Positions 13,768 through 45,115 of a stretch of DNA of 49,889 bases are shown one piece after another. Both the position numbers and the translations under genes were made by a program. The DNA is from Candidatus Aegiribacteria sp. (GTDB lineage Bacteria; Fermentibacterota; Fermentibacteria; Fermentibacterales; JCC-6), in NCBI GenBank assembly GCA_021108435.1, contig JAIOQY010000134.1:1-49889 (forward strand). The letters are read 5' to 3'. Within the stretch, counting starts at the first letter, position 1; each line of letters opens with the position of its first letter. The notes beneath the pieces were generated by a model that saw only the letters and a program-made list of their open reading frames with translations, did no database searches and was not told the origin of the DNA.

Positions 13768-15804
13768 ATGAAGATGCAGAACAACAGCAGTAAAGAATAT
13801 TTACTGGATAATCTGTGTCATGATAAAAGCACTTCATATAAGATCATAATTTCAATTACTTTCGGGCTGCTGGGATTCGCTCTTAACTTTTTCCCGGTTG
13901 ATTTCATTTTCTACGGCTCCTATCGCATGAGTTTCCTTTTTGGTCTCGTTTTCCCAATGCTGATAACACTGGCCTGGGGATGGAAGTACGGTCTTCTGTC
14001 CGCGCTTTGCGGCGGCTGTCAGACGATGTGGATACTATGGCTTCCGGGGAGCGGTTACGGACCGCTTGTTTCAGTTCCACCCTTTACTCTCTGGATTGTA
14101 TGGCTTGGGTGGTTTTCGAGCAGAGGGCGGAACGTATACCTGGGTGAAGTTATCTTTCGAGTATTTAACACACTGTTGTTGTATACTGTATTCAGGTGGG
14201 TTTTCACTTTTAATTCACCGCCCGCCAATCTGGAAATGCCTATTGCCGTTGTGAACTCAATTGTTTTCAAGGAAATAGTGAATGGATTCCTCATTCTTTC
14301 TCTGGCACGGGGATTTCTTTATTCAAAAACGGTAAGGGAATTCTTCGGACTGCAGGATACACGAACCGATCCGAGGGTGTACTATGTGTTTCTGAATATT
14401 CTCATTCTGGCGGTAATGCTGACACTCATTCTGCTTGGTGAGAGATTTCTGTGGAGCAGCTGGTCAGCCGAGTTTAGAAACATGGCACGCTTTATTTGCT
14501 CTCTTCTGCTGCTTGTCGCGGGAGCTTTCTGCCTGTACGGCGCTGCCGGTGAGTTCGTCAGAAGGAAGATCGAAGGGGTATTAGAACGCGAGCGCAATCA
14601 GCTGGAGGAAATAGTCAGGGAGCGAACGAGTGAACTTCGGGAGAACCAGACAAGGCTTGCTCAAATCGTGCAGGGATCTTCCATGCCGATAATCGTCATA
14701 GACAGAGATCATATCGTAACACACTGGAACAGAGCCTGCGAAAGATTGACGGGAATTCCCGCAAATGAAATAGTGGGAACGGGAAAACATTGGTCCGCCT
14801 TTTATCCGGAAGAGAGGCCAATTCTGGCGGATATAGTGATTGGAGATTCGCCTGAACTTGAAATTTCAAAGTATTACGGTGACAGCTGCTGGAAATCAGT
14901 CCTTATTGACGGCGCGTATGACGCCGAGAGCTTTTTTCATGATCTGGGCGAGAATGGCAAATGGCTGCATTTCAGCGCGGCGGTGCTTCGCGATTCGCAG
15001 GGGAATATCACCGGAGCAATTGAAACGTTCCAGGATGTCACAGGGAGAAAACAGGCAGAGGAAGAACTGAGGAAAGCGCACGATGAACTTGAGATTCGTG
15101 TAGAGGAAAGAACAGCGGACCTAAATGCCAGCAACAGTGATCTGGAAGCGTTCTCATATTCAGTTTCACATGATCTCAGAGCGCCGCTCAGATCAATTGA
15201 CGGCTTTTCAAAGCTTCTTCTAGAAGAGCACATTCAGGATTTGAATGAACAGGGAATTCATTACCTGGAGAGGGTGCGGGCCGGAGCCCAGAATATGGGT
15301 GCTCTCATTGATGATATGCTGACTCTTTCCCGGCTGGGACGCGAACCGCTTTCAACAGAAACAGTCGGGATGACGACCATTGCGGAAGAAGCTCTTGAAC
15401 TGCTGAGAGATGAATGGAAAGACCGAAAAGTGGATTTCACCTTTCATGATTGTCCGAATATTAATGTCGACCCTGATCTTATGCGTATCGTCCTTGTGAA
15501 TCTCCTGTCCAACGCGCTGAAGTTTTCCAGAAACACTGATTCTGCTATAATAGAATTAGGTCACAGGATTATGGATAATCAAACGGTATTTTTCCTGAGT
15601 GATAACGGCATTGGTTTTAACATGAAATATGCGGACAGGATTTTCGCTCCATTTCAGAGGCTGCACAGGTCTGAGGAGTACGAGGGTTCTGGAATAGGTC
15701 TTTCGAGCGTTAAGAGGATAATCGACAGCCATGGCGGTCGAATATGGATTGAATCAGGTTCCGATTCGGGAACAACAGTCTTTTTTACTATACCAGGGAG
15801 TTAA
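13768..15804 (+). CDS. Membrane histidine kinase (multi-TM, PAS, HisKA, HATPase)
   Basis: A 678-residue protein. The first 275 residues hold about seven membrane helices, a sensory region of unidentified type. A coiled coil, a PAS domain (about 295-440) and the kinase core follow. The H-box is FSYSVSHDLRAPLRS (His near 467). The ATPase shows LVNLLSNALKFS, DNGIGF and GSGIGLSSV. The H-box is of the phytochrome-like type that usually pairs with Rcp1-like response regulators, and exactly such a gene follows two bases downstream. Autophosphorylation and transfer to that regulator are therefore the likely function. The signal is unknown. Confidence 0.93.
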   Translation: MKMQNNSSKEYLLDNLCHDKSTSYKIIISITFGLLGFALNFFPVDFIFYGSYRMSFLFGLVFPMLITLAWGWKYGLLSALCGGCQTMWILWLPGSGYGPLVSVPPFTLWIVWLGWFSSRGRNVYLGEVIFRVFNTLLLYTVFRWVFTFNSPPANLEMPIAVVNSIVFKEIVNGFLILSLARGFLYSKTVREFFGLQDTRTDPRVYYVFLNILILAVMLTLILLGERFLWSSWSAEFRNMARFICSLLLLVAGAFCLYGAAGEFVRRKIEGVLERERNQLEEIVRERTSELRENQTRLAQIVQGSSMPIIVIDRDHIVTHWNRACERLTGIPANEIVGTGKHWSAFYPEERPILADIVIGDSPELEISKYYGDSCWKSVLIDGAYDAESFFHDLGENGKWLHFSAAVLRDSQGNITGAIETFQDVTGRKQAEEELRKAHDELEIRVEERTADLNASNSDLEAFSYSVSHDLRAPLRSIDGFSKLLLEEHIQDLNEQGIHYLERVRAGAQNMGALIDDMLTLSRLGREPLSTETVGMTTIAEEALELLRDEWKDRKVDFTFHDCPNINVDPDLMRIVLVNLLSNALKFSRNTDSAIIELGHRIMDNQTVFFLSDNGIGFNMKYADRIFAPFQRLHRSEEYEGSGIGLSSVKRIIDSHGGRIWIESGSDSGTTVFFTIPGS

Positions 15805-15806
15805 AT

Positions 15807-16244
15807 ATGAATAAGAGAGAAGTTCTGATACTTCTGGTAGAGGACAATCCGGACGATGTGGAACTGACCCTGAAGGCTTTCGAGAAGCACAATCTTGCCA
15901 ACGAGATAATAATCGCGAGGGACGGAGAGGAAGCTCTCAACCTCCTGTTTCCGGAAGATGATAGTGTCTCTGAACCATGTACTCCCGATCTGGTTCTTCT
16001 GGATCTGAAACTGCCTAAAATTGACGGCATGGAAGTCCTCCGCAGGATAAAAAGCGATCCAATAACAAAACTTATTCCAGTTGTGATTCTTACGTCTTCA
16101 AAAGAAGAGAAGGATCTTACCGAGAGCTACCGTCTTTGTGTAAACAGCTATATCAGGAAACCTGTTAATTTCGAGAAGTTCACTGAAGCTATAATTCAAC
16201 TCGGTTTGTACTGGCTTCTGCTGAATGAATCTCCGGTGAGTTAG
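15807..16244 (+). CDS. Rcp1-like single-domain response regulator
   Basis: A 145-residue stand-alone receiver domain. It has the acidic pair in LLVEDNPDD, phosphoacceptor Asp66 in LVLLDLKLP, the conserved Thr in VVILTSS and Lys in YIRKP. The long loop before the phosphorylation site and the C-terminal LGLYWLLLNE are typical of Rcp1-type regulators that partner phytochrome-like kinases. There is no DNA-binding output, so it should act by protein contact or as a phosphate shuttle. It sits between the kinase gene and a REC-PAS-PAS gene in one operon. Confidence 0.93.
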   Translation: MNKREVLILLVEDNPDDVELTLKAFEKHNLANEIIIARDGEEALNLLFPEDDSVSEPCTPDLVLLDLKLPKIDGMEVLRRIKSDPITKLIPVVILTSSKEEKDLTESYRLCVNSYIRKPVNFEKFTEAIIQLGLYWLLLNESPVS

Positions 16245-16254
16245 GAGCAGTATC

Positions 16255-17571
16255 ATGAACGCGAGAACACTTGAATTGCTGATTCTGGAGGATAACATAG
16301 ACGATGCTGAGCTGGCCGTAAAACAGCTTGAAAAGGAAGGATTTGATGTTGAGTACAGCGTTGCGGATACTGAGGATTCATTCAGAGAAGCTATCGACGC
16401 TGACCCTGATCTTATTCTTGCCGATTACAGCCTGCCGGGTTTCAGCTGTCTTGATGCTCTGCGCATACATCAGAATGTCACACCTGATATACCGCTGATA
16501 CTCTTTTCCGGAACCATCGGAGAGGAAAAAGCAGCTGATTGTATAAAGCTCGGTGCTGTCGATTATGTTCTGAAAGATAATCTCGTCAGGCTTGCCCCTG
16601 CTGTACGAAGAGCGCTTGATGAAGCAAGGATTCGCAGGGAAAGAATGAATGCCGAGATGAAGCTGAGGGAAAGCGAGGAGAAGTACAGGCTTACAGTCGA
16701 GAATTCTAATGACGGTATCTGCATTGTGCAGGATGGCAGGATGGTTTTCTTAAATCCTCAGGTTGGTAAACTTCTTGGTTATCCCCGTGGCTCCGGTATC
16801 GATAAACCGTTTATCGATTATTTTCATTCCGATGATCAACAAAGAATAATCGCAGAATATGAGAGGTTCGCGAAAGGTCTGGAAGAACGGCAGAAAATCG
16901 AGACGATATTGATATCTTCGGATGGACGGGAGATCAGTGTTGAACTCAATATCAGTGTTACATCCCACGAGGGCAGCCGTGCAGGTCTTGTATACATTCG
17001 CGAGATAACCGAGCGAAAGAGGATGGAAGACGCGCTTCGGAAGAGCGAGGCTCAGAAACAGGCCCTTCTCGACGGTTCCCCCGATATGATAATCCTGCTG
17101 GATACGGATCTTAAAGTACTCTGGGCCAACAGAACGGCTCTTTCCATGAATCCTGATTCAATCGGTCAATTCTGTTACAAAGCATTCCCCGGAATTGAAG
17201 AGCCCTGCGATGGCTGCCCGATTGTTAAAGCCATTGAAACGGGAGAAAACGAAACAGGTATCGTGTATCAGGAGGCCGTTGAAGGAAAAAGAGGTGAAAG
17301 ATACTGGGAAGATATAGGTGTTCCGATGAAGGACGGGAACGGAAATGTTATCGAGGTTATCAAGATTGCCAGGAACATTACGGATCGGGTAAAAAGGGAA
17401 AAAGATCTTAGAAGAAAAAACGAAGAGCTCGAGAGATTCAATTCACTCGCTGTCGGCAGAGAACTGAAAATGGTGGAGTTGAAACGGGAGATTAACGCAC
17501 TGCTTGAGGAACTTGGCAGAGAACCCGCGTTTAATCTGCCCTCCGGTCATGAAACAGAGGCTTCGAAGTGA
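16255..17571 (+). CDS. REC-PAS-PAS protein without a kinase domain
   Basis: A 438-residue protein. A receiver domain (about 1-125, Asp57 in LILADYSLPG) is followed by two PAS domains (about 140-262 and 270-385). The second PAS contains the Cys-rich signature CYKAFPGIEEPCDGCPI. The C-terminus is a coiled coil with LERFNSLAVGRELKMVELKREI, a tail I recall from PAS proteins that end without an enzymatic domain. It may pass a signal from the upstream kinase to the downstream hybrid kinase by direct contact. Its stop overlaps the GTG start of the hybrid kinase (GTGA). Confidence 0.88.
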   Translation: MNARTLELLILEDNIDDAELAVKQLEKEGFDVEYSVADTEDSFREAIDADPDLILADYSLPGFSCLDALRIHQNVTPDIPLILFSGTIGEEKAADCIKLGAVDYVLKDNLVRLAPAVRRALDEARIRRERMNAEMKLRESEEKYRLTVENSNDGICIVQDGRMVFLNPQVGKLLGYPRGSGIDKPFIDYFHSDDQQRIIAEYERFAKGLEERQKIETILISSDGREISVELNISVTSHEGSRAGLVYIREITERKRMEDALRKSEAQKQALLDGSPDMIILLDTDLKVLWANRTALSMNPDSIGQFCYKAFPGIEEPCDGCPIVKAIETGENETGIVYQEAVEGKRGERYWEDIGVPMKDGNGNVIEVIKIARNITDRVKREKDLRRKNEELERFNSLAVGRELKMVELKREINALLEELGREPAFNLPSGHETEASK

Positions 17572-20500
17572 GAATACGCTCAAAAGTTCTCCTTACAGCC
17601 TTCTTAATAATCATTGCGACGGGATTGTCTGTCATTCTTGTTGTGAGAAGTATCTCGAAAAGCATTCTTGAAGAACAGATGATCGACCATCTCGCCTCCA
17701 TCGCGGAGATCAGGGCAAGATATGTCGATTCTATTCTGAGCGAGTACAGGCAGATCACCGTGCTTGCATCAACAGGAAGTTCTTACATCAATCTTGTTTC
17801 AGGAAAAGAAGAAATGGAAGATGCAATTGAAGCCGTGAACAGAAGGATCAGTGCTGTACTGTTCTCTTACGATGTGATCTCGCGGATAAGGGTGCTTGAC
17901 AGGAACGGCATTGTAATGGCTTCATCTCATTCGGATATCGGAAATGATCTCAGCGGGGATTCACTGTTTATGAATGTTACCGATGGAGGGGTCTATACAG
18001 GTGAACTGCACTTTTCGCGATTTACGGGCAATCCGGTATTAAGTATTTCAGCTCCGATCTACAAATCCGGTGAGTTCCGGGGAGCGATTGTAATTAATTT
18101 TGATGCAGATAAGGAACTGTTTTCTTCTATAACGGACAGGACCGGTCAGGGGGAGACAGGAGAGGTTTATGTAATTGACAGAAACGGTCTTATGCTTACT
18201 CCTTCTTTATACATCGATAACGCTGTTCTGCATGTGGAGGTCGATCTGGAGACAGCGGGGGGTATCGCGGAAACCTGTCGATTCGAGGGCGGAGAACATG
18301 AATCTGTAGCTGTTTTTACAAATAATTACATGGGGAAAGATGTTATCAGCATTCATTCACATGTTTCCGATATTGACTGCATCCTTATAGCTGAAATCAG
18401 CGTTGAAGAAGCCTTCGCTCCTGTTGACAGACTCACTCGAAGCATGCTCATCGTTATGGCTGGAGTGCTTGTTCTGGGTTTATTGCTTTCAGTAGCTGTC
18501 TCATCCAGTCTGGCAAAACCCATCGAGAAGCTGAAAGATGGTGTGGAAGAGATAATGAAGGGAAATCTTGATTGCAAAATCAGGTCAAAAACGAAGGATG
18601 AGACGGGAGAACTCTCAAGAGCATTCAGTGATATGACAGCGGAACTTAAAGAATCAAGAAGCGGACTGGAAGAACATGCCGGAGATCTTGAAAAAAAGAT
18701 ATCTGAAAGAACATTTGAATTGAAGCTGCAGTTTGAAAAAAGTGAGCAGCAGAGGATCGCGACACTCAATTTACTCCAGGATCTGGATGAATCCAGCAGC
18801 AAACTGAGAGATGAAATCAGTGAGAGAAAACGAACGGAAAAAACGCTTGAGCAGAGGGTTTCACACCTTGCAGTGCTCGGGGAAATAGGCCGGAACATCG
18901 CATCAATGCTTGAACTGGATTCGCTACTTACACTTACTGCGTCTCTTATTCACGAGTCATTCGGCTATCAATATGTCTCGATTCTGCTGATTAATCCCGT
19001 TACAGGCAAGCTTGTTATCAGGGCGGGAGCCGGTTTCGATGTCGCGCCGACAAGGGAAATACATCTCAAAATCGGGGAAGACGGTATCTGCGGCCATGTT
19101 GCCTCCACCGGCGAATACCTTCTTGTCGGTGATGTTAAGCTTGATCCTCGATACTTTCTTATAGATGAACTGCCTGGCAGTCGTTCCGAACTGACGGTTC
19201 CTGTCAGCGTAAAAGGCCGGGTAATAGGTGTCCTTGATGTTCAGAGCGATAAGGTAAATGCGTTTGATAAGCAGGATGTGTTCATCATCCGGATTATGGC
19301 CGATCAGGCGGCAATCGCGATTGAGAACGCTCAGCTTTTCGAACGGGCGGCAAAAGATCTGGCCGAGAGAGAAATTGCGGAAAAGGCGCTCGAATCGGAA
19401 AAGGAGATGCTGAGGGTTACATTAAGGTCAATTGGTGACGCAGTCATCGCGGCTGATACTACCGGTGAGATCATTATGATGAACAGGGTTGCTGAAGAAT
19501 TGACAGGATATTTGCAGAATGAAGCTTCAGGAAGAAAACTCACAGACATTTTCCATATTAATGATGAAAGTACGGGAGAACCATGCCGCGACCCTGTAGA
19601 TGAAGTACTGGAATCAATGGATGTTATCAGTTACTCCAATCATAAGATTCTTTCGGACAATAATGGTTCAGAAAGACCAATTGCATACAGTTGTGCTCCC
19701 ATTCAGGACAGGGAAAGCCGGCTGGTCGGCGCTGTTGTTGTTTTCCGCGACATTGCAGAGCATCGCAGGACAGAGGAAGAGCTTCGGAAGACCGCACGGC
19801 TTGAATCGATTGGTATTCTTGCGGGCGGTCTGGCCCATGATTTCAATAATATGCTTTCAGCGATACTTGGAAATATCTCTCTTGCGAAGATGTCACTTGA
19901 CCCCGAAGACAGCGTGTATAAAACATTGACAAAGTCGGAGAACGCGTCCATGCGGGCGAGAGATCTCACTCAGCAGCTTCTTACTTTCTCAAAGGGCGGA
20001 GCGCCTGTCAGGGAGACAACATCCATTGCTGACCTCATCAGTGAGACAGTGAACTTCGCCCTTGGAGGATCAAAATCACGGGGAGAGATATCCATTCGGG
20101 ATAACCTCTGGGCTGTGGATATCGATAGAGGACAGATCAGCGAAGTGTTAAGCAATTTGATAATTAATGCGGATCAGGCAATGCCGGAAGGAGGTGTGAT
20201 TGAAGTCAAGGTAGAGAATGCTGTAATCAATCTGGATGAGATCCCTTCATTACCGGAAGGCAGATATGTAACTATCTCGATCTCGGATAATGGCATCGGG
20301 ATACCCGCAAAACAGCTGGAGAAGATCTTCGATCCATACTTCACAACGAAACAGACAGGAAGTGGTCTTGGTCTTACCATTGTTTATTCCATTCTGAGAA
20401 AACATGACGGATATATTACTGTTGATTCCGAGATCGGAGTTGGGACTGAATTTCTCCTGTACATTCCTGCTTCAGACAGCGATGAACCAGCCGGAACAAA

Positions 20501-20948
20501 ATTAATACAGGAAGCACTTTCCGGTGAAGGAAATATCCTTGTCATGGATGATGATAAAATGGTGTGTGACGTTGCGGGCGGAATGCTCAGGCATCTGGGC
20601 TATAATGTTGATTTCGCTGAGAATGGTGAAGAAGCCCTTGAAAAATACAGAGGAGTGATGGGGAGCAGCGAATCGTTTGATGTGGTTATCATGGATCTGA
20701 CCATTCCGGGAGGAATGGGTGGCAGAAACACGATAGCCATGCTTCTTTCAATGGATCCCGGAGCAAAAGCGATTGTATCAAGCGGTTATTCAGAAGATCC
20801 GGTGATGGCTAACTATGAGAAATTTGGATTCTACGGGTGCATCAAAAAACCCTATCGTGTTGCTGAACTTGGAAGAATACTTATAGAAGTCATGAAAAAA
20901 AATAAAAACAGGGATGATAAGGATACAGGATCTGCTTCAGAAGAATAA
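17568..20948 (+). CDS. Cache-HAMP-GAF-PAS hybrid histidine kinase with receiver domain
   Basis: A 1126-residue membrane protein. Helix 1 spans about 7-27. A dCache-like extracytoplasmic sensor (about 30-285) follows, then helix 2 (about 287-308), HAMP (about 308-360), a coiled coil, GAF (about 431-590) and PAS (about 613-735). HisKA carries LAGGLAHDFNN (His near 757). HATPase (about 848-969) shows ISDNGIGIP and GSGLGLTIV. A C-terminal receiver (about 988-1108, Asp near 1042 in VVIMDLTIPGG) ends the protein. The Cache domain should bind a small extracellular ligand. The start is GTG at 17568, overlapping the preceding stop. It is the last gene of the kinase/regulator operon starting at 13768, and a MITE-like element follows. 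Confidence 0.94.
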   Translation: MRIRSKVLLTAFLIIIATGLSVILVVRSISKSILEEQMIDHLASIAEIRARYVDSILSEYRQITVLASTGSSYINLVSGKEEMEDAIEAVNRRISAVLFSYDVISRIRVLDRNGIVMASSHSDIGNDLSGDSLFMNVTDGGVYTGELHFSRFTGNPVLSISAPIYKSGEFRGAIVINFDADKELFSSITDRTGQGETGEVYVIDRNGLMLTPSLYIDNAVLHVEVDLETAGGIAETCRFEGGEHESVAVFTNNYMGKDVISIHSHVSDIDCILIAEISVEEAFAPVDRLTRSMLIVMAGVLVLGLLLSVAVSSSLAKPIEKLKDGVEEIMKGNLDCKIRSKTKDETGELSRAFSDMTAELKESRSGLEEHAGDLEKKISERTFELKLQFEKSEQQRIATLNLLQDLDESSSKLRDEISERKRTEKTLEQRVSHLAVLGEIGRNIASMLELDSLLTLTASLIHESFGYQYVSILLINPVTGKLVIRAGAGFDVAPTREIHLKIGEDGICGHVASTGEYLLVGDVKLDPRYFLIDELPGSRSELTVPVSVKGRVIGVLDVQSDKVNAFDKQDVFIIRIMADQAAIAIENAQLFERAAKDLAEREIAEKALESEKEMLRVTLRSIGDAVIAADTTGEIIMMNRVAEELTGYLQNEASGRKLTDIFHINDESTGEPCRDPVDEVLESMDVISYSNHKILSDNNGSERPIAYSCAPIQDRESRLVGAVVVFRDIAEHRRTEEELRKTARLESIGILAGGLAHDFNNMLSAILGNISLAKMSLDPEDSVYKTLTKSENASMRARDLTQQLLTFSKGGAPVRETTSIADLISETVNFALGGSKSRGEISIRDNLWAVDIDRGQISEVLSNLIINADQAMPEGGVIEVKVENAVINLDEIPSLPEGRYVTISISDNGIGIPAKQLEKIFDPYFTTKQTGSGLGLTIVYSILRKHDGYITVDSEIGVGTEFLLYIPASDSDEPAGTKLIQEALSGEGNILVMDDDKMVCDVAGGMLRHLGYNVDFAENGEEALEKYRGVMGSSESFDVVIMDLTIPGGMGGRNTIAMLLSMDPGAKAIVSSGYSEDPVMANYEKFGFYGCIKKPYRVAELGRILIEVMKKNKNRDDKDTGSASEE

Positions 20949-21338
20949 CGAATCATTTACACATAGCATTATTATTCTACGGAATAGTATATTCAACATA
21001 ACATAAATCCTGATTCAGTGTTCATGATTTGGACATCGGTGATTTACCCGCACAAATCACCAGCTTGCGTAGCGAAACGTTGCAGATGCTGGTAACTACA
21101 AGGCTTGCGAGTGCAGACTCCACAGTCGTACTTTAACAGTACGTCGAGGACGGATGCATGAGCATAACGAAGTAGGTGCCTGTATATGTGGCGTTGTAGT
21201 AGAAACCAGTATGTTAGGAAACCTGCGGATCCTGGGGAAATCCACAGAAAATTGGTGATTTATGTGGGTTAGGGCTATATTCAGTAGAAGAAAGTTGAAA
21301 GTACACTAAACCGGGATATGATTCAAAGGAGGTCTGAA
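20949..21338. other. Intergenic region holding a MITE-like element
   Basis: About 390 bases between the hybrid kinase and the STAS gene contain no credible protein gene. Most of it is occupied by the inverted-repeat-bounded element at 21038-21269. The remaining 3' part must hold the promoter for the partner-switching genes, but I could not place it with confidence. Confidence 0.6.
21038..21269. mobile_element. MITE-like or structured-RNA element with terminal inverted repeats
   Basis: A 17-base end at 21046-21062 is the inverse of 21253-21269 with two mismatches. The left end also forms its own hairpin, GGTGATTT (21038-21045) with AAATCACC (21054-21061). Inside are further hairpins: ACCAGC/GCTGGT, GAGT/ACTC and CGTACT-TTAAC-AGTACG. 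There is no reading frame for a transposase. A small size, inverted ends and structured interior fit a non-autonomous mobile element, or a structured RNA. The parent family is not recognised. Confidence 0.5.
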
Positions 21339-21680
21339 TTGAAGATCAAGGAAGAGATGAAGGGTGATGTGCTTGTCGTTTCTCTTTCCGGCAAAGTTAT
21401 AGGTGGCCCTGAACTGATGAACGTGAAAACAGTATTTCAGAATGCTGTTAATCATGATATTTCAAAAGTACTGCTTGATCTCGGAAAAGTCACCTGGATG
21501 GATAGTTCAGGACTTGGAGTAATTGTCTCCGGTCATACTACTCTCTCCAGAGCAGGTGGATCTCTCAGGATTCTCAATGCCACCAAGAAAATTCATGAAC
21601 TGTTTATCATTACAAAACTGATCACTATCTTCGAAACTTATAATGATGAGCAGGAAGCGCTGAACAGCTTCGGAGAATAG
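21339..21680 (+). CDS. STAS-domain anti-sigma factor antagonist (RsbV/SpoIIAA-like)
   Basis: A 113-residue single STAS domain. The phosphorylation motif is WMDSSGLG, with the acceptor being one of serines 56-57. SGKVIGG and the ending helix are typical. In partner switching the unphosphorylated form binds and sequesters an RsbW-like kinase. An ATG at 21318 opens the frame earlier. A near-perfect AAAGGAGGT (21325-21333) instead positions TTG 21339 as the start. It is followed two bases later by its presumed kinase and then by the phosphatase. Confidence 0.92.
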   Translation: MKIKEEMKGDVLVVSLSGKVIGGPELMNVKTVFQNAVNHDISKVLLDLGKVTWMDSSGLGVIVSGHTTLSRAGGSLRILNATKKIHELFIITKLITIFETYNDEQEALNSFGE

Positions 21681-21682
21681 CT

Positions 21683-22096
21683 GTGCGAGCAATAGAGATT
21701 CGGCTACCAAGTGAAGTATCCGTTCTGGAGCCTCTTCAGCTTTTTGTCGAGAGTATCGGGAAGTACGCTGGAGTGGATGATGATGAACTGTCTTCACTTT
21801 CAGTTGCGGTTATCGAACTTGTTAAAAACGGAATGGAACACGGGAACGGCAACGATCCTGAGCAGATTGTAACAATCACTATTGATACTTTCCAGAGCAG
21901 GATTCGTTTCTTTATTGATGATGAGGGCATCTGGGAACCCGATATGGCACCGGGATTTAATCCGGGAGAAGGAGAGGAACTTCTTTCTTGCAGAGGACGC
22001 GGAGTTCTGATTGCAAGAAATCTGGCAAAATGGGTGGAATTCGGTCTTACACCTGAGGGAAAAACCAGGGTTACTCTTATTTGGCCTTTGACCTGA
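21683..22096 (+). CDS. RsbW-like anti-sigma kinase (HATPase)
   Basis: A 137-residue GHKL ATPase of the RsbW/SpoIIAB class. The N-box is ELVKNGMEHGNG, the G1 region IDDEGIWEPD, and the lid/G2 region CRGRGVLIARNLA. These kinases phosphorylate the STAS antagonist and bind a target, classically a sigma factor but sometimes another protein. The start is GTG at 21683, two bases after the STAS stop. No sigma gene is adjacent; the nearest, at 44273, is of primary type. The target of this switch is therefore unknown. Confidence 0.9.
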   Translation: MRAIEIRLPSEVSVLEPLQLFVESIGKYAGVDDDELSSLSVAVIELVKNGMEHGNGNDPEQIVTITIDTFQSRIRFFIDDEGIWEPDMAPGFNPGEGEELLSCRGRGVLIARNLAKWVEFGLTPEGKTRVTLIWPLT

Positions 22097-22112
22097 AAGC
22101 AGTTCGAATTCT

Positions 22113-25100
22113 GTGAACAGTTTTAGACTTGCTGCAGTATTCGAAAAAAGGGGTTTCCCCGGCGGGATTCAGGATCTTCTCAGAAGAGACGCAGAGCTGC
22201 TGATTCCTCCAAGATGGGCTGATAATACTGTACTGATCGATCCTGATGCTCTGGTTCCAGATGCACTTCTTCTGATAATCAATGGTCCCCTTTCCACTCA
22301 CATGAGGAACACATACTTCAATTGTTACAGACGCGGGATTCCGATAGCAGGCATATGCTACCTTACAGAACCTGAAGATGATCCTGTAGCGCTCAAGCTT
22401 TCCGATCAGAACCTCTGCTGGTCGTTCTCCTCGGCCGGCTTCGGAAGGGAACTCCTTCGAAATCAGGTTCAGGATTGGCTTCGTGGATTGAATCGAGAGT
22501 CCTTTCCCTTTCCTGAAGGTAAGGAATTGATTCAATCGTACGGAGATATCGATGTTTCGCCTGTAGATCAGGATTCTTACGAATCCGCGAGGGAAGTCCT
22601 GACAAAACGCGGCTTCGTGTGTCTCAGTGGTTCTCTGGGAGCAGGGAAGACCACCATTGCGCGCAGGCTTCTGATAGAGGCAGCCAGGGAGGGTTTGAAT
22701 CCTGTTGAGTTCATAACTCGTGACCTTTATTTCGCAGAAGTAGTTCAGCTTCTTACCGGCCCGGAGGACTGTGCTGTATTCCTGGATATTGATACACTCA
22801 GAAGAATAGTAGATATCTATCCGCTTCGTCTCTGGTCAACAATTCTCACGCTGATGATCAGAGTAACTGAAACAAGGCACAGGCTGATCCTTGCGACATC
22901 TTCACCGGAGATAGCTGTGGTTTTTGACACATATCACGATGCGCATATCAAACTTCCGGAACCTTCGACAAGCAGAAAATGGCGATTGAAACAGGGTCAG
23001 GATGCTCTCAAGTGGTTTCGATCTCAGGGTTCTCTGAAGAAAGCTGGACTTCTGCTGCTTGCAGCGTTTGACCCGGTTGTTCCCGAGGCGGTTTTCAAGA
23101 GCACGCTCTTCAAGTTCTGGGATAGGCTGATTGTACAGGAAGACAGAAAATTTCCATCTACTGAAGAGCTTGAATTACTTTACAGTAATTCTCTTGCAGC
23201 TCAGGGCATAGCGCCTTTCCGAAGGATTTCGGGAAGCGGTGAGGTTTATATAGCGGTCAGCGATTCGATGAAAATGTGGGCAATCGATAACGGAATTCAA
23301 GAACTTCTGAAGAAGGATGCCCCCATTATCCGGGCTTTTGCGGACACGTTAATTGGAAGCTCTGAATCCAGCGTAAGACGGGCAGGATATTTTCTGGCTG
23401 GATTCTATGGAGATCTGTCTGACGAAGTGAGGGCTAAACTTCTTCTGCACATTGCTGCTGAAGAATCCGGGACTGTTCTTACCGATGTTCTCAATACATT
23501 GCTGAGTTCTATTAACAGTGCTGATGAGTCTATTATCGGTATGTACAGGATAATGATGGAAAAGGGCAGTTCCGAAGTCAGGGGATCAGTCGCGGGGACG
23601 CTTTTCAGATCATGGGTAATGGAATCCGCTGAGACAGTTGATCTGGTTAACGCAGCTGCAGAAGACCCCGACCCGCGAGTGAGAGGACAGTTCATTCAGG
23701 GTTTGACATTTCTGGAAATGTCTGAACGTGGATCAAGGATATATAATAAGCTTCTTGAGGATGATTCAATAGAAGTCCGGCAGAATATTCTGTTACACAT
23801 CGGCAGCAAATTTCCCGATCTATCCAGCAGAGAATACGAAGTACTCAATGATGTTCTTGAAAGTGGTGATTCCGGATTACTGCCTCCTCTGATCATAGGG
23901 TTGCTTGACAGAGAACTTGAAGAGTTCAATCAGGAATTCAGTGATCTCCTCTGGGTATTAATGGAACGGCTTCCCGATGGCGGCAGGGGAAGACTTGCCT
24001 GGAGAATCGGAGCGAGATTGAGGTTTTTCAGCAGAGAAGTAAGGAAAACTCTTCGATCCGACCTTTCTGAAAAAGATGTTCTTCCTGTAACCCGCTGCAT
24101 GCTGATGAATTATTCCTCACTTGATGAGGATGAGAAGAAGAACCTCTGGGTTATGATTCACGAGCGCGTAAGCGACAGCAGAGCATTTGCGCACATGGTT
24201 CTGCGGTATTACAGTATTATGGATGAAACAGACAGAAACAATTTGCTCAAGACGGTGCTTGTGTCAGAACGCTATGATGGAAGGGAAGCACTGAGTCAGC
24301 TGATATGCAGGGGACGAACTGATCTGGCAGAGGCTTCCTTTGAACTGATTGAAGAGATTCTTGCTGATGGTGAATTTGAGAAAAGGGCCTTGCTTCCGTT
24401 TTTTGTGCTCTGGAACGGTAATGATCTTGGTGAAAATCAGGAAGAGATCATTTCTGCTTTTTTAACTGATAATTCACCTCTTGTACGAAAATCCCTTGTC
24501 AGGGCAGTTCGTCGTCTTGGAGTACTCACTTCTGATTCAATAAGGGTTCTTGTTCAGCTTTCAGCTGATGAAAAAAGAGCTGTCCGGGCAGCAGCCGGAG
24601 CAGCATTGGGAGAATTCGAGAGCGATGGCACTCATAATCTGAGCAGCGTTCTGATCACCCTTCTTTCTGATGAAGATCCATTTGTCAGGTTGAGTACTCT
24701 TTCCGGTCTCCTGGAGAATGTTCTTCTTTCAGCTGAAAAGCTCCTGCCTGTTGTTTCTGCTGCTCTTGATGATCCTGCTTCGGAAGTAAGGCTGGAAGCG
24801 GTTCAAGGTTTAAGAAGATATCCCGCGATGTGTTCAAAAGGAGATGTTGCCGGAAAACTGGCTGAAAGGCTTGTTGATCCTGACAGAAATGTCCGCATGG
24901 AAGTAGTAGAGCTTGTCACTGAAACTCCTGAACTGCTTGCTTCAAAAGAAGTCAGAAACAGAATGCCTGATATTCTGCTGAACAGGTTATCCACCGGTCA
25001 CGCGATAGCAGAGGAATTGAGCATGGCCAGAAAAATTCAGCTCGATCTGCTGCCGGACAAACCACCAAATCCTGAGAGATATGATATCGAAAGTTATTAC

Positions 25101-25727
25101 AGACCCGCGAGGGAGGTTGGCGGCGATTACTTCGATTTCTTCCATCTGCCGGACCGTAACCTGGGGATAGCCATTGCTGATGTTGCCGGGAAGGGAATTC
25201 CAGCTGCGCTTACCATGGCAGGTCTGAAAGGCAATCTTGAAGCCTATGTTCAGAACATTTATTCAATAAGTGAAATTATGCAGAAGGTTAACGAATCTTC
25301 CGTTCTTGGTGAGGGAGATCTGATTATGACGGGTCTTTTTTACAGCGTACTTGATCTTGATTCAGGTAAGCTCACCTATGTGAATGCCGGACATAATCCA
25401 CCTCTTCTTGTCAGGAGGGAGGGAAGTACAACCTGGCTTGACAGGGGTGGACTCATCCTCGGACTTTCAGACAATGCGGAATACGAGCATGGAACGGATG
25501 AACTCGAACCTGGAGATGTTCTTGTCCTTTATACAGATGGAATCACAGAAGCCATGGACAAATTCAATGTTGAATTAGGTATTGACAGACTGAAACAGGT
25601 AGTTCTGGACAACAGAGACCTTTCAGCTCAGCAGATCGCGGGAGGAATCCTTGAAGCAGTGAATTCCCATTCGGATGGAATACCGCAGGGAGATGATCAG
25701 ACTCTTGTAGTTGTGAAACACAGGTAA
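22113..25727 (+). CDS. P-loop NTPase-HEAT-repeat-PP2C (RsbU-type) phosphatase
   Basis: A 1204-residue protein with four parts. Residues 1-130 are an unassigned alpha/beta domain, with distant similarity in pattern to N-terminal domains of STAND ATPases. Residues about 145-330 hold a P-loop NTPase: Walker A GSLGAGKTT near 173-181, Walker B-like CAVFLDIDTLRR, and sensor-like HRLILATSSPE, close in style to nSTAND-type modules. Residues about 380-960 are helical HEAT-like repeats, with units such as DPDPRVRGQFIQGL and DPASEVRLEAVQGL. Residues about 965-1204 are a SpoIIE/RsbU PP2C phosphatase with REVGGDYFDFF, ADVAGKGIPAAL, LYTDGITEAMD and GDDQTLVVV. It should dephosphorylate the upstream STAS protein. 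The NTPase-HEAT part is presumably the sensor. The start is GTG 22113. Confidence 0.88.
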   Translation: MNSFRLAAVFEKRGFPGGIQDLLRRDAELLIPPRWADNTVLIDPDALVPDALLLIINGPLSTHMRNTYFNCYRRGIPIAGICYLTEPEDDPVALKLSDQNLCWSFSSAGFGRELLRNQVQDWLRGLNRESFPFPEGKELIQSYGDIDVSPVDQDSYESAREVLTKRGFVCLSGSLGAGKTTIARRLLIEAAREGLNPVEFITRDLYFAEVVQLLTGPEDCAVFLDIDTLRRIVDIYPLRLWSTILTLMIRVTETRHRLILATSSPEIAVVFDTYHDAHIKLPEPSTSRKWRLKQGQDALKWFRSQGSLKKAGLLLLAAFDPVVPEAVFKSTLFKFWDRLIVQEDRKFPSTEELELLYSNSLAAQGIAPFRRISGSGEVYIAVSDSMKMWAIDNGIQELLKKDAPIIRAFADTLIGSSESSVRRAGYFLAGFYGDLSDEVRAKLLLHIAAEESGTVLTDVLNTLLSSINSADESIIGMYRIMMEKGSSEVRGSVAGTLFRSWVMESAETVDLVNAAAEDPDPRVRGQFIQGLTFLEMSERGSRIYNKLLEDDSIEVRQNILLHIGSKFPDLSSREYEVLNDVLESGDSGLLPPLIIGLLDRELEEFNQEFSDLLWVLMERLPDGGRGRLAWRIGARLRFFSREVRKTLRSDLSEKDVLPVTRCMLMNYSSLDEDEKKNLWVMIHERVSDSRAFAHMVLRYYSIMDETDRNNLLKTVLVSERYDGREALSQLICRGRTDLAEASFELIEEILADGEFEKRALLPFFVLWNGNDLGENQEEIISAFLTDNSPLVRKSLVRAVRRLGVLTSDSIRVLVQLSADEKRAVRAAAGAALGEFESDGTHNLSSVLITLLSDEDPFVRLSTLSGLLENVLLSAEKLLPVVSAALDDPASEVRLEAVQGLRRYPAMCSKGDVAGKLAERLVDPDRNVRMEVVELVTETPELLASKEVRNRMPDILLNRLSTGHAIAEELSMARKIQLDLLPDKPPNPERYDIESYYRPAREVGGDYFDFFHLPDRNLGIAIADVAGKGIPAALTMAGLKGNLEAYVQNIYSISEIMQKVNESSVLGEGDLIMTGLFYSVLDLDSGKLTYVNAGHNPPLLVRREGSTTWLDRGGLILGLSDNAEYEHGTDELEPGDVLVLYTDGITEAMDKFNVELGIDRLKQVVLDNRDLSAQQIAGGILEAVNSHSDGIPQGDDQTLVVVKHR

Positions 25728-27871: not shown

Positions 27872-28756
27872 ATGGAAATTGAAGGGGTTCTCTTCCTTGC
27901 CGCTGGATACGGTACCAGGATTGAACCTCTTTCTCTTGTGCGACCTAAAGCACTCCTTCCCTTCGGAAACAGTACTGTTCTTGCTGAACTTGCCCGACAG
28001 ATTTACGCTCTATGTCCTCGAAGAGTAAGAATAAACGCGTCAAGGTGTCCTGAAGTGTTACTGAATGAACTGATATCGGTATGGCCAATTGAGATGTGTT
28101 CAGTATATTTCGAGGAAAGGCCATTGGGTGCGTGCGCAACACTGGCCAGACATGCATCTGCAATGACAGAAGGAACATGGATGATTGTAAATACTGATAT
28201 GATCATCGAAGGTTTCGATGCAGTACAGATGATGGAGTTTCATAAGGAGACCGAATCATCCTGGACTGTTCTAACAGGTTGTTTTCCATCTGAAGGGAGT
28301 TATTCTCCACTTCTTATGGATGAAAACAGATGTTTCGGAACGGGCAGGGGAGATCAGGTTCATTACTGGGGAATCAGTCTTGTTGAGCCTGCTATTCCGT
28401 TGCTTTCACGAAGATGTCAATCATCAGGCCTGTTTTCCGAACTGGCTCCTGCGGCAAAGGATAATGGATATAAGCTCTTCTCATGTAATATGGAAGGTAA
28501 CTGGCTGGATATGGGCAGAATCGACATTGCACGAGAGAATATCCTCTCTGGTGGATCATTTATTCATACAAATGCATGTGTTTCCAGCGATGTTGTGCTT
28601 GAAGGAAACTGGAATATCGGACCGGGATGTATTCTGGCCGGTGGAACAGTCTTGAGAAACAGTGTTATGCTCGAAGGCTCAACACTGGAAAACGGTTGTA
28701 TTGATGAAACCATCCTTCCATGGTTCTGCAGCAGTCGAGACGGAAACATCTTATGA
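27872..28756 (+). CDS. Sugar-1-phosphate nucleotidyltransferase (MurU-like)
   Basis: A 294-residue protein. The nucleotidyltransferase signature LAAGYGTRIEPLSLVRPKALLP opens it, and VNTDMII is the metal/nucleotide site. A left-handed beta-helix region (about 225-280, GCILAGGTVLRNSVMLEGS) ends it. Next to a choline-kinase-like sugar kinase this matches the MurU-AmgK arrangement, in which a kinase makes MurNAc 1-phosphate and MurU makes UDP-MurNAc for peptidoglycan recycling. The substrate is not proved and could be another hexose. Its TGA overlaps the kinase ATG (ATGA). Confidence 0.82.
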   Translation: MEIEGVLFLAAGYGTRIEPLSLVRPKALLPFGNSTVLAELARQIYALCPRRVRINASRCPEVLLNELISVWPIEMCSVYFEERPLGACATLARHASAMTEGTWMIVNTDMIIEGFDAVQMMEFHKETESSWTVLTGCFPSEGSYSPLLMDENRCFGTGRGDQVHYWGISLVEPAIPLLSRRCQSSGLFSELAPAAKDNGYKLFSCNMEGNWLDMGRIDIARENILSGGSFIHTNACVSSDVVLEGNWNIGPGCILAGGTVLRNSVMLEGSTLENGCIDETILPWFCSSRDGNIL

Positions 28757-29754
28757 AAAGAATGACTGCTGAACTTGCCGACTGGCTTCGAAGCAGAATG
28801 GGCGATAATGTCGTAGTAGATAAACTGCATGGTGATGTTTCAGGCAGACTTTTCTGGAGAGTGTTTTCCGGTCAGGACACTCTGATTCTTATGGACAGCG
28901 GCACAATCCCTATATGGCCCTGGCTTGATATTCATGAACTTCTTGCAACCAAAGGTTTTCCAGTTCCATCAGTAATGGACTGCAATACAAAAAAAGGATG
29001 GGTTTTACAGGAGGATCTTGGTGATTTGCGTCTGCTTGATGCTAATGATGATGAGTATGGCGAATACATAGATAATGCTCTTGATCTTCTTTTCCATATG
29101 CAGCGGGAGCTTAACAGCAAATTCTGTTCCGGTTCGATTGCAGGCAGAAGGAGTTTTACACCTGCGTTTTTTATGGCGGAACTGGAGAATACTCTGGAAA
29201 GCCTGTTCTTCAGACTGCTTTCCGTACCAATGGACGATCTTCTTGCGCTGCAGGCAGAAATGAGGATCCTGTGCGGCAAGATCGATGAAGCTACCGTATT
29301 CACTCACAGGGACTTTCATTCCGCTAATCTCATTATCCACGAAAATAGACTGATAATGGTAGACTGGCAGGATGCGCGATTCGGTCCACCTGCATATGAT
29401 CTGGTCAGCCTTCTTCGAGACAGCTACAGAGATATTGGATTATCATGGGAGGACAGGGCCAAGAAGTATGTTCATGCTCAGGGGAACCTTAATATGTTTC
29501 AGGTCGCACGTGCGGCATGTCAGAGGAGTCTAAAAGCAGCAGGAACCTTCAGCAATCAGTACAGGAAAACAGGTGACAGTTCGTTTCTGAGTTATGTTCC
29601 CAGAACTTTCAGATACCTTGGAGATTACGCGAGAATCTGTCCTCAACTCGAGAATCTTGTAGACAGTATTTATAGTACTCTCGACAACTATTTCGGAGAG
29701 ATTGATCTCAGGGATTTCAGATACTCGAACATACCGGGCATACTGGAGAAATGA
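28753..29754 (+). CDS. APH/choline-kinase-like sugar kinase (AmgK-like)
   Basis: A 333-residue kinase of the aminoglycoside phosphotransferase fold. It shows the catalytic loop FTHRDFHSANLII (HxD with Asn) and the metal-binding MVDWQDARFGPPAYDL. HGDVSGRLFWRV near the N-terminus fits the nucleotide-loop region, and LQEDLGD follows. The coupled upstream nucleotidyltransferase suggests an anomeric sugar kinase such as AmgK rather than an antibiotic-modifying enzyme. The start ATG 28753 overlaps the previous stop. In-frame starts further upstream lie inside the neighbour. Confidence 0.82.
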   Translation: MKRMTAELADWLRSRMGDNVVVDKLHGDVSGRLFWRVFSGQDTLILMDSGTIPIWPWLDIHELLATKGFPVPSVMDCNTKKGWVLQEDLGDLRLLDANDDEYGEYIDNALDLLFHMQRELNSKFCSGSIAGRRSFTPAFFMAELENTLESLFFRLLSVPMDDLLALQAEMRILCGKIDEATVFTHRDFHSANLIIHENRLIMVDWQDARFGPPAYDLVSLLRDSYRDIGLSWEDRAKKYVHAQGNLNMFQVARAACQRSLKAAGTFSNQYRKTGDSSFLSYVPRTFRYLGDYARICPQLENLVDSIYSTLDNYFGEIDLRDFRYSNIPGILEK

Positions 29755-44272: not shown

Positions 44273-45115
44273 TTGGCGACCAAGCGAACAGAAGGCAGGT
44301 CACTTGAGCTATACCTGAGAGAAATCGGAAGTAAAGAAACACTATCATCCGCGGAGGAAGCATCGCTCGCAAAACGGATCCGAAAAGGTGAGCAGGAAGC
44401 TCTTAACGAGCTGACAGAGGCTAATCTCAGATTCGTTGTAAGCATTGCAAAACAGTACGCGAACCAGGGTGTTGCGCTGGAAGATCTGATAAACGAGGGG
44501 AATGTAGGGCTTATAAGGGCCGCCAAGGGATTTGATGAGAGTAAGGGCTGCCGCTTCATTACGTATGCTGTCTGGTGGATCAGACAGGCGATCCTGCAAG
44601 CACTTGCAGAGCAATCGAGAATTGTCCGTCTGCCATTGAATCGAGTAGGAGAGCTGTACAAGATGGGGCGGGCTGCGCGCGAACTGGGACATTCACTTGG
44701 AAGAAATCCATCAACAAATGAGATAGCGGATGAGCTGGATGTATCCAGAGATGACGTAGAATGTATGATGTCCATTCACAGCACACATTTATCACTTGAC
44801 AGTCCGGTGTATGAGGGTAGCGACAAGACTTTCCAGGAAATGATCTCTAACGATGATGATGTCCCGCCCGATGAAGCAGTGGTGCTTTCCGCAATGAGGA
44901 GAAGTGTTGCCGGGATGCTTGATATCCTTGACCAGCGCGAAAGAACCATCATACAGCTGTTCTTTGGAATCAATACAGACCGAAGGCATACACTTGCTGA
45001 AATTGGCAGAACCATGGGTATCAGCAGGGAGAGGGTTCGTCAGCTCAAGAACAGAGCTATCTCAAAGCTTAATGATAAATCAGATAATAAAAACCTTCTT
45101 CTTTATCTGAAGTAG
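44273..45115 (+). CDS. Sigma-70 family RNA polymerase sigma factor (RpoD-like, short)
   Basis: A 280-residue sigma factor with regions 1.2, 2, 3 and 4 but no long region 1.1. Region 1.2 reads SLELYLREIG. Region 2 has LRFVVSIAKQYANQGVALEDLINEGNVGL and FITYAVWWIRQAI (promoter melting). Region 4 has HTLAEIGRTMGISRERVRQLK, the -35 recognition helix. This short layout is seen in primary sigma factors of some phyla, but could be an alternative sigma of the RpoD/RpoS type. The start is TTG 44273 after GAAAGGCGG. An ATG nearby is out of frame. Confidence 0.92.
   Translation: MATKRTEGRSLELYLREIGSKETLSSAEEASLAKRIRKGEQEALNELTEANLRFVVSIAKQYANQGVALEDLINEGNVGLIRAAKGFDESKGCRFITYAVWWIRQAILQALAEQSRIVRLPLNRVGELYKMGRAARELGHSLGRNPSTNEIADELDVSRDDVECMMSIHSTHLSLDSPVYEGSDKTFQEMISNDDDVPPDEAVVLSAMRRSVAGMLDILDQRERTIIQLFFGINTDRRHTLAEIGRTMGISRERVRQLKNRAISKLNDKSDNKNLLLYLK

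Follow-up and report, generated by a model that had tools for sequence, protein, structure and literature searches.

A Fermentibacterota partner-switching module with a STAND-like NTPase and a HEAT solenoid at the input side of its phosphatase

The partner-switching phosphatases described so far receive their signals through PAS, GAF, receiver or HAMP domains, or through the N-terminal domain of RsbU (PMC12143880). In RsbU, linker helices dimerize the PP2C domains and thereby activate them, and the diverse sensors of related phosphatases are thought to share this route (PMC12143880). A different mode of control is known from STAND regulators, where MalT is autoinhibited in its ADP-bound form and then oligomerizes upon ligand binding (PMC10427625). 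Here we describe a three-gene locus of Candidatus Aegiribacteria sp. (phylum Fermentibacterota), located on a contig of 49,889 nucleotides (JAIOQY010000134.1, assembly GCA_021108435.1; the whole stretch is hereafter called the window), which encodes a partner-switching module where a STAND-like NTPase and a HEAT solenoid form the input of the phosphatase.

The genes for a STAS antagonist, an RsbW-like kinase and a protein of 1204 residues lie almost contiguously at 21339-25727, all on the forward strand and in the order given by the original prediction, and Pfam and NCBIfam agree with these assignments. The first gene (21339-21680) encodes a 113-aa protein of the RsbV/SpoIIAA type (Pfam STAS, E=2.1e-13; TIGR00377 anti-anti-sigma, E=8.6e-17). 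Its TTG start at 21339 was favored over the first ATG (21318) because the ribosome-binding site AAAGGAGG, read directly from the sequence at 21326-21333 on the same strand, lies 5 nt upstream, and because all 32 STAS orthologues aligned have a start codon at the equivalent position. The protein carries the motif MDSSGLG with the predicted phosphoserine S56 (codon 21504-21506); mean column identity over the 32 orthologues is 80%, and D55, S56, S57 and G58 are invariant. Judged by these motifs, it is an antagonist with a conserved serine predicted to be phosphorylated. The second gene (21683-22096) encodes a 137-aa serine kinase and anti-sigma-like switch (HATPase_c_2, E=1.7e-16) with RsbA, SpoIIAB and RsbW as top NCBIfam matches. 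Residues E45, N49, H53, D80, G82 and R104-G105-R106-G107 are invariant across the 32 orthologues, which identifies the protein, at the level of sequence, as a GHKL kinase of the RsbW/SpoIIAB type with intact ATP-binding motifs. The STAS protein was the sole one found in the window genome (G000) at E<=0.001, and the kinase is the only short stand-alone protein among the RsbW-type ATPase matches of that genome, the others being located in longer frames with weak scores. The third open reading frame (22113-25727) encodes the 1204-aa phosphatase, a proposed STAND-type receptor, of which 30 full-length copies were aligned.

Residues 5-1204 of the phosphatase were modeled in AlphaFold2 with 31 aligned orthologues (mean predicted local distance difference test score, pLDDT, of 84.5; predicted template modeling score of 0.67). 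The model showed the expected order of blocks, with an alpha/beta N-terminal domain followed by a P-loop domain, a winged-helix-like unit, an unbroken helical solenoid and a short flexible joint, after which come the linker helix and the PP2C domain. The SpoIIE PP2C, HEAT and nSTAND3 matches were all above the curated Pfam cut-offs. The nSTAND3 P-loop NTPase covers residues 145-290 (22545-22982; Pfam PF20720 over residues 151-267, E=1.3e-11, with a score of 44.8 bits where the cut-off is 27.2), and the family was matched by 31/31 orthologues at E<=0.001. It contains the Walker A motif GSLGAGKT (residues 173-180, codons 22629-22652) and the Walker-B-like motif CAVFLDIDTLRR (residues 220-231, codons 22770-22805), the core of which, VFLDID, spans residues 222-227. 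G173, G178, K179, T180, D225, D227, R230 and R231 are invariant in the 31 orthologues, as is an R288-x-W290-R291 motif located C-terminal to the Walker motifs. The P-loop NTPase originally proposed from GSLGAGKTT is thus borne out by the profile score, by the invariance of the Walker residues and by the P-loop domain in the model.

At the other end of the protein, the RsbU-type PP2C/SpoIIE phosphatase domain covers residues ~985-1204 (25065-25724; SpoIIE, E=1.2e-43, residues 1013-1203), and its acidic motifs GGDYFD, DVAGKG, LYTDG and GDDQTL are present and conserved, in agreement with the C-terminal phosphatase claimed before. SpoIIE was matched in 30/31 orthologues, the exception (L016) being a sequence where the contig ends inside the phosphatase. 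The nearest solved structures are the PP2C domains of RssB, Rv1364c, SpoIIE and SiaA. Ahead of the phosphatase, a linker helix, EELSMARKIQLDLLP (residues 966-981, 25008-25055), was recognized by its conservation, most of its positions being invariant or near-invariant among the orthologues, and it matches in position the RsbU linker that controls phosphatase dimerization (PMC12143880).

Between the NTPase and the linker, a HEAT-type alpha-solenoid of ~555 residues was identified (residues ~401-955, 23313-24977; Pfam HEAT_2, E=8.7e-19, and HEAT, the latter matched in 31/31 orthologues), with the PP2A scaffold and SF3B1 among its PDB fold matches. The ~580 residues of HEAT-like repeats first proposed are therefore upheld as a solenoid in both Pfam and the model, but not in their limits: the repeats start at ~401 and not at 380, because residues ~305-400 (23025-23312) form a separate winged-helix-like unit at the position of the STAND winged-helix domain, consisting in the model of a helix, a strand, two helices, a beta hairpin and a helix. 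A Pfam search with these residues gave no family. The N-terminal residues 1-130 (22113-22502), originally described as an unknown domain, were refined by AlphaFold2 to an alternating alpha/beta domain with a pLDDT of 90.5 when modeled alone. No Pfam match to this part of the window protein was obtained up to E=1, and the top PDB fold match had E=2.5e-3 with a high root-mean-square deviation; on the model, the domain is Rossmann-like and lies outside any confidently matched family. TIR, receiver and deoxyribosyltransferase domains were considered and rejected, as the fold matches to a TIR protein, Rcp1 and MilB were not confident, the invariant Glu of a TIR or deoxyribosyltransferase domain is absent from the alignment, and so is the receiver-type Asp pair near the start.

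Compared with RsbU-RsbV-RsbW and SpoIIE-SpoIIAA-SpoIIAB, the module has in common the PP2C phosphatase, the STAS protein with its MDSSGLG serine, the RsbW-type kinase and the RsbU-like linker helix before PP2C. It differs from RsbU in that the short N-terminal domain is replaced by a ~960-residue input made up of the alpha/beta domain, the STAND-type NTPase, the winged-helix-like unit and the HEAT arm, and from the RsbU and SpoIIE switches in that the Fermentibacterota operon has no sigma factor. RsbP, RsbZ, OsaC, RssB and SiaA, with PAS, GAF, HAMP or receiver inputs, have a homologous PP2C domain and helical linker, whereas their sensory parts are unrelated. With STAND regulators such as MalT and with immune receptors (NACHT, Avs, AP-ATPase), the phosphatase shares the P-loop NTPase, a putative winged-helix-like unit after it and a long C-terminal superstructure-forming repeat. 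Its effector, however, is a regulatory PP2C located after the repeat arm, whereas the effector of those proteins sits at the far end and is a DNA-binding domain, a nuclease or another toxic domain. The earlier view that an NTPase and HEAT repeats in STAND-like layout stand where a PAS, GAF or receiver input would be expected is supported by the nSTAND3 match and the HEAT solenoid. The two other PP2C proteins found by homology in the window genome carry GAF domains.

No description of a STAND-HEAT-PP2C phosphatase was found in the open-access literature searched. Whole-protein matches in at least 18 genomes of other groups (same domain only) can all be accounted for by the PP2C domain. Five genomes from other taxa, chosen for their distant STAS relatives, gave no hit in a profile search run without a positive control, and a contig scan outside the phylum with residues 1-420 gave nothing but carries no weight, as the same scan missed orthologues within the phylum that were recovered from this collection in a later scan. 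As far as these limited searches go, the output module of the locus is a familiar one and its input has no parallel elsewhere. Large kinase/ATPase/SpoIIE fusion proteins of another kind exist, in which an AAA_16-type ATPase block shares a chain with a SpoIIE phosphatase; they carry Ser/Thr kinase and GAF domains and are not known to have a HEAT arm. A further fusion was seen in a 448-aa open frame (L100 484-1827, G001:C16), where a SpoIIE phosphatase is fused in a single chain to a helix-turn-helix domain and to an ATPase of the RsbW type.

The P-loop and HEAT parts could serve only to bring an otherwise ordinary RsbU phosphatase to its site, such as a membrane or a macromolecular complex, its activity being set by localization or constitutive and not controlled by nucleotide-gated sensing. 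HEAT solenoids often act in this way, and the fold matches of the solenoid include the PP2A scaffold subunit, but the Walker A and acidic Walker-B-like residues are invariant across the 31 orthologues, with identities in that region as low as 38%, which is unexpected for a dead NTPase, and we regard such a passive scaffold as rather unlikely. On balance we favor a nucleotide-gated partner-switching regulator in which a STAND-type receptor sensor is built into the phosphatase. Several observations weigh against this. In distant orthologues the nSTAND3 match is shorter and lies mainly around Walker A. Since PF20720 also picks up unrelated P-loops with scores close to its cut-off, the assignment to STAND depends on the score within the clade of the window together with the domain order. 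The NTPase is the least confident part of the model (pLDDT mostly 60-83), the winged-helix-like call is drawn solely from the secondary structure of the model, and the operon holds no target gene.

In the regulator that we favor, the block of NTPase and winged-helix-like unit would, together with the HEAT arm, keep the C-terminal PP2C domain inactive in the resting state, while the kinase would keep the STAS protein phosphorylated at S56 and would bind and inhibit its target. Binding of a cytoplasmic ligand, probably to the HEAT arm, the N-terminal alpha/beta domain or both, would then lead to nucleotide exchange and self-association, whereby the linker helices would be brought together and the PP2C domains would pair and become active. 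The active phosphatase would remove the phosphate from the STAS protein, which in its unphosphorylated form would capture the kinase and release the target. Signaling from phosphatase to STAS protein to kinase is very likely, given the operon and what is known of these families. Nucleotide gating and oligomerization are suggested by analogy with STAND proteins, and linker-driven activation by analogy with RsbU.

The distribution of the module was analyzed in 42 genomes of the phylum. A homologue of the phosphatase was present as a single-copy gene in 38/42 genomes, 36 of them detected with a profile of the N-terminal 420 residues, and two (G036 and G041) having C-terminal phosphatase pieces only, at contig ends. 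The group that bears it comprises Candidatus Aegiribacteria, Sabulitectum and Fermentibacter (Fermentibacteria / Hyd24-12). In one genome, Sabulitectum silens (G035), the gene is split into several frames, either by sequencing error or by decay. The four genomes without the gene are G005 (98% complete), G023 (92%) and two others that are 61-66% complete; the absences in G005 and G023, both small genomes of 1.9 Mb, are likely true. The length of the protein stays within 1202-1204 aa in each of the 30 full-length copies aligned, with identities as low as 41%. Pairwise ratios of nonsynonymous to synonymous substitution rates (dN/dS) were 0.06-0.14 for the whole protein and 0.01-0.29 for any single domain, including 0.06-0.19 for the HEAT arm and 0.04-0.11 for PP2C, and every domain of the phosphatase is under purifying selection. 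Neither repeat expansion nor any sign of diversification was found among the 30 full-length copies; in this the phosphatase differs from arms-race receptors.

Defense receptors are usually sporadic, mobile and diversifying. The phosphatase gene has neither a sporadic, mobile or defense-island distribution nor a diversifying sensor. This bears on the suggestion that the module is a defense switch, in which the HEAT arm would sense a phage product and the partner switch would fire an anti-phage response. A STAND NTPase with superstructure-forming repeats is indeed a layout found in conflict systems, and published ones pair STAND NTPases with rapidly varying effectors (PMC7159879). A PADLOC search gave matches to HEAT-ARM_XIII (9e-8) and PDC-S73 (8e-4), but these are weak and partial, and no plasmid match spans more than about a quarter of the protein, these matches lying at its phosphatase end. 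In contrast to STAND immune receptors, the Fermentibacterota gene is conserved in one housekeeping locus; it is near-universal, single-copy and of fixed length, its repeats are under purifying selection, and its neighbors are metabolic and translational genes. The proposed link to phage defense was therefore rejected on the distribution, synteny and selection of a core gene, and a defense function is very improbable. The role of the module looks like that of a conserved physiological or stress response and not of an accessory immune function.

The order STAS-kinase-phosphatase, which the original prediction had singled out for a survey of genomes, is retained in three families of the phylum, at every locus for which the contig extends far enough. 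At most loci examined, it is preceded by genes for a 225-aa protein, an Fe-S protein, a thioredoxin-like protein and a family 2 glycosyltransferase, and followed by genes for an S-adenosylmethionine hydroxide adenosyltransferase (SAM_HAT), a GH57 protein and a nucleotidyltransferase, with an APH-like kinase and aminoacyl-tRNA synthetases further downstream where seen. In G005, the glycosyltransferase gene is directly followed by the SAM_HAT gene, the cassette being absent between the kept flanks, and no STAS or NTPase homologue was found genome-wide; the parts of the module have therefore been lost together. Nothing argues more strongly than this joint loss for the three genes acting as a unit and for the neighbors being independent of the module. 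The corresponding contig of G023 breaks off immediately upstream of SAM_HAT, and neither a STAS nor an NTPase protein was found in that genome. Downstream of the module in the window, at 27872-29754, the nucleotidyltransferase gene stands beside that of an APH-family kinase, an order conserved in several loci; we take this pair to resemble the MurU/AmgK pair of cell-wall sugar recycling.

A cluster of four genes encoding histidine kinase, receiver and PAS proteins (13768-20948) separates the glycosyltransferase and STAS genes in the window genome, as it does in the closest relative, L110. The cluster was considered as part of the module and rejected, being present only in L110 among the loci examined; since the glycosyltransferase and STAS genes are adjacent in the other loci, it looks like a recent insertion. 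Between this cluster and the STAS gene, an intergenic repeat of ~160 bp was observed at 21046-21269, with 27 matches in the genome at 69-93% identity to the query copy. This copy is bounded by 17-nt inverted ends, ACCCGCACAAATCACCA, and the dispersed repeat may be an element resembling miniature inverted-repeat transposable elements. An Rfam scan of the leader region and the repeat gave nothing.

As a candidate target, a sigma factor encoded outside the operon was considered. Two proteins with sigma region 3 were found in the window genome. The short one (280 aa, 44273-45115 in the window), of primary type, has regions 1.2, 2, 3 and 4, is unusually short and occurs in nearly all genomes of the phylum; it is probably the primary sigma factor. 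The other is a longer, second sigma-70 encoded elsewhere (~410-490 aa; G000:C170, 15276-16658), which the kinase would sequester if control of an alternative sigma factor were the dedicated task of the module. Sigma factors are the classical binding partners of RsbW-type kinases, and in the genus of the window the long sigma factor was present in 16/16 genomes with the module and in 0/3 without it. Two of these three genomes are only 61-66% complete, however, which leaves one informative loss, in G005, also a smaller genome. Moreover, genera g4 and g5 yielded only shorter extra sigma factors and no long form, G023 keeps an extra sigma factor without the module, and the long sigma gene is not adjacent to the module. 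The second sigma-70 is thus a weak lead, and its sequestration by the kinase is possible but doubtful. The protein itself (L089 520-1923, G000:C170; ~467 aa) has a large insertion between the N-terminus and region 2, and its close relatives in the genus are about as long, the extra sigma factors of other genera being shorter. Only tentatively can the module be viewed as a non-immune housekeeping STAND receptor that couples recognition of a cytoplasmic ligand to partner switching, as a core regulator throughout the phylum, and acts on a dedicated alternative sigma factor.

The input slot of a partner-switching phosphatase is occupied here by an architecture that NLR-like receptors use, on the same polypeptide as the output enzyme. 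This raises a question that can be addressed in a single protein, namely whether a STAND nucleotide switch may activate PP2C through an RsbU-type linker helix. Because the Fermentibacterota phosphatase behaves as a core gene, in a phylum without cultured model organisms, a STAND and HEAT layout should not be read as defense without a check of its distribution.

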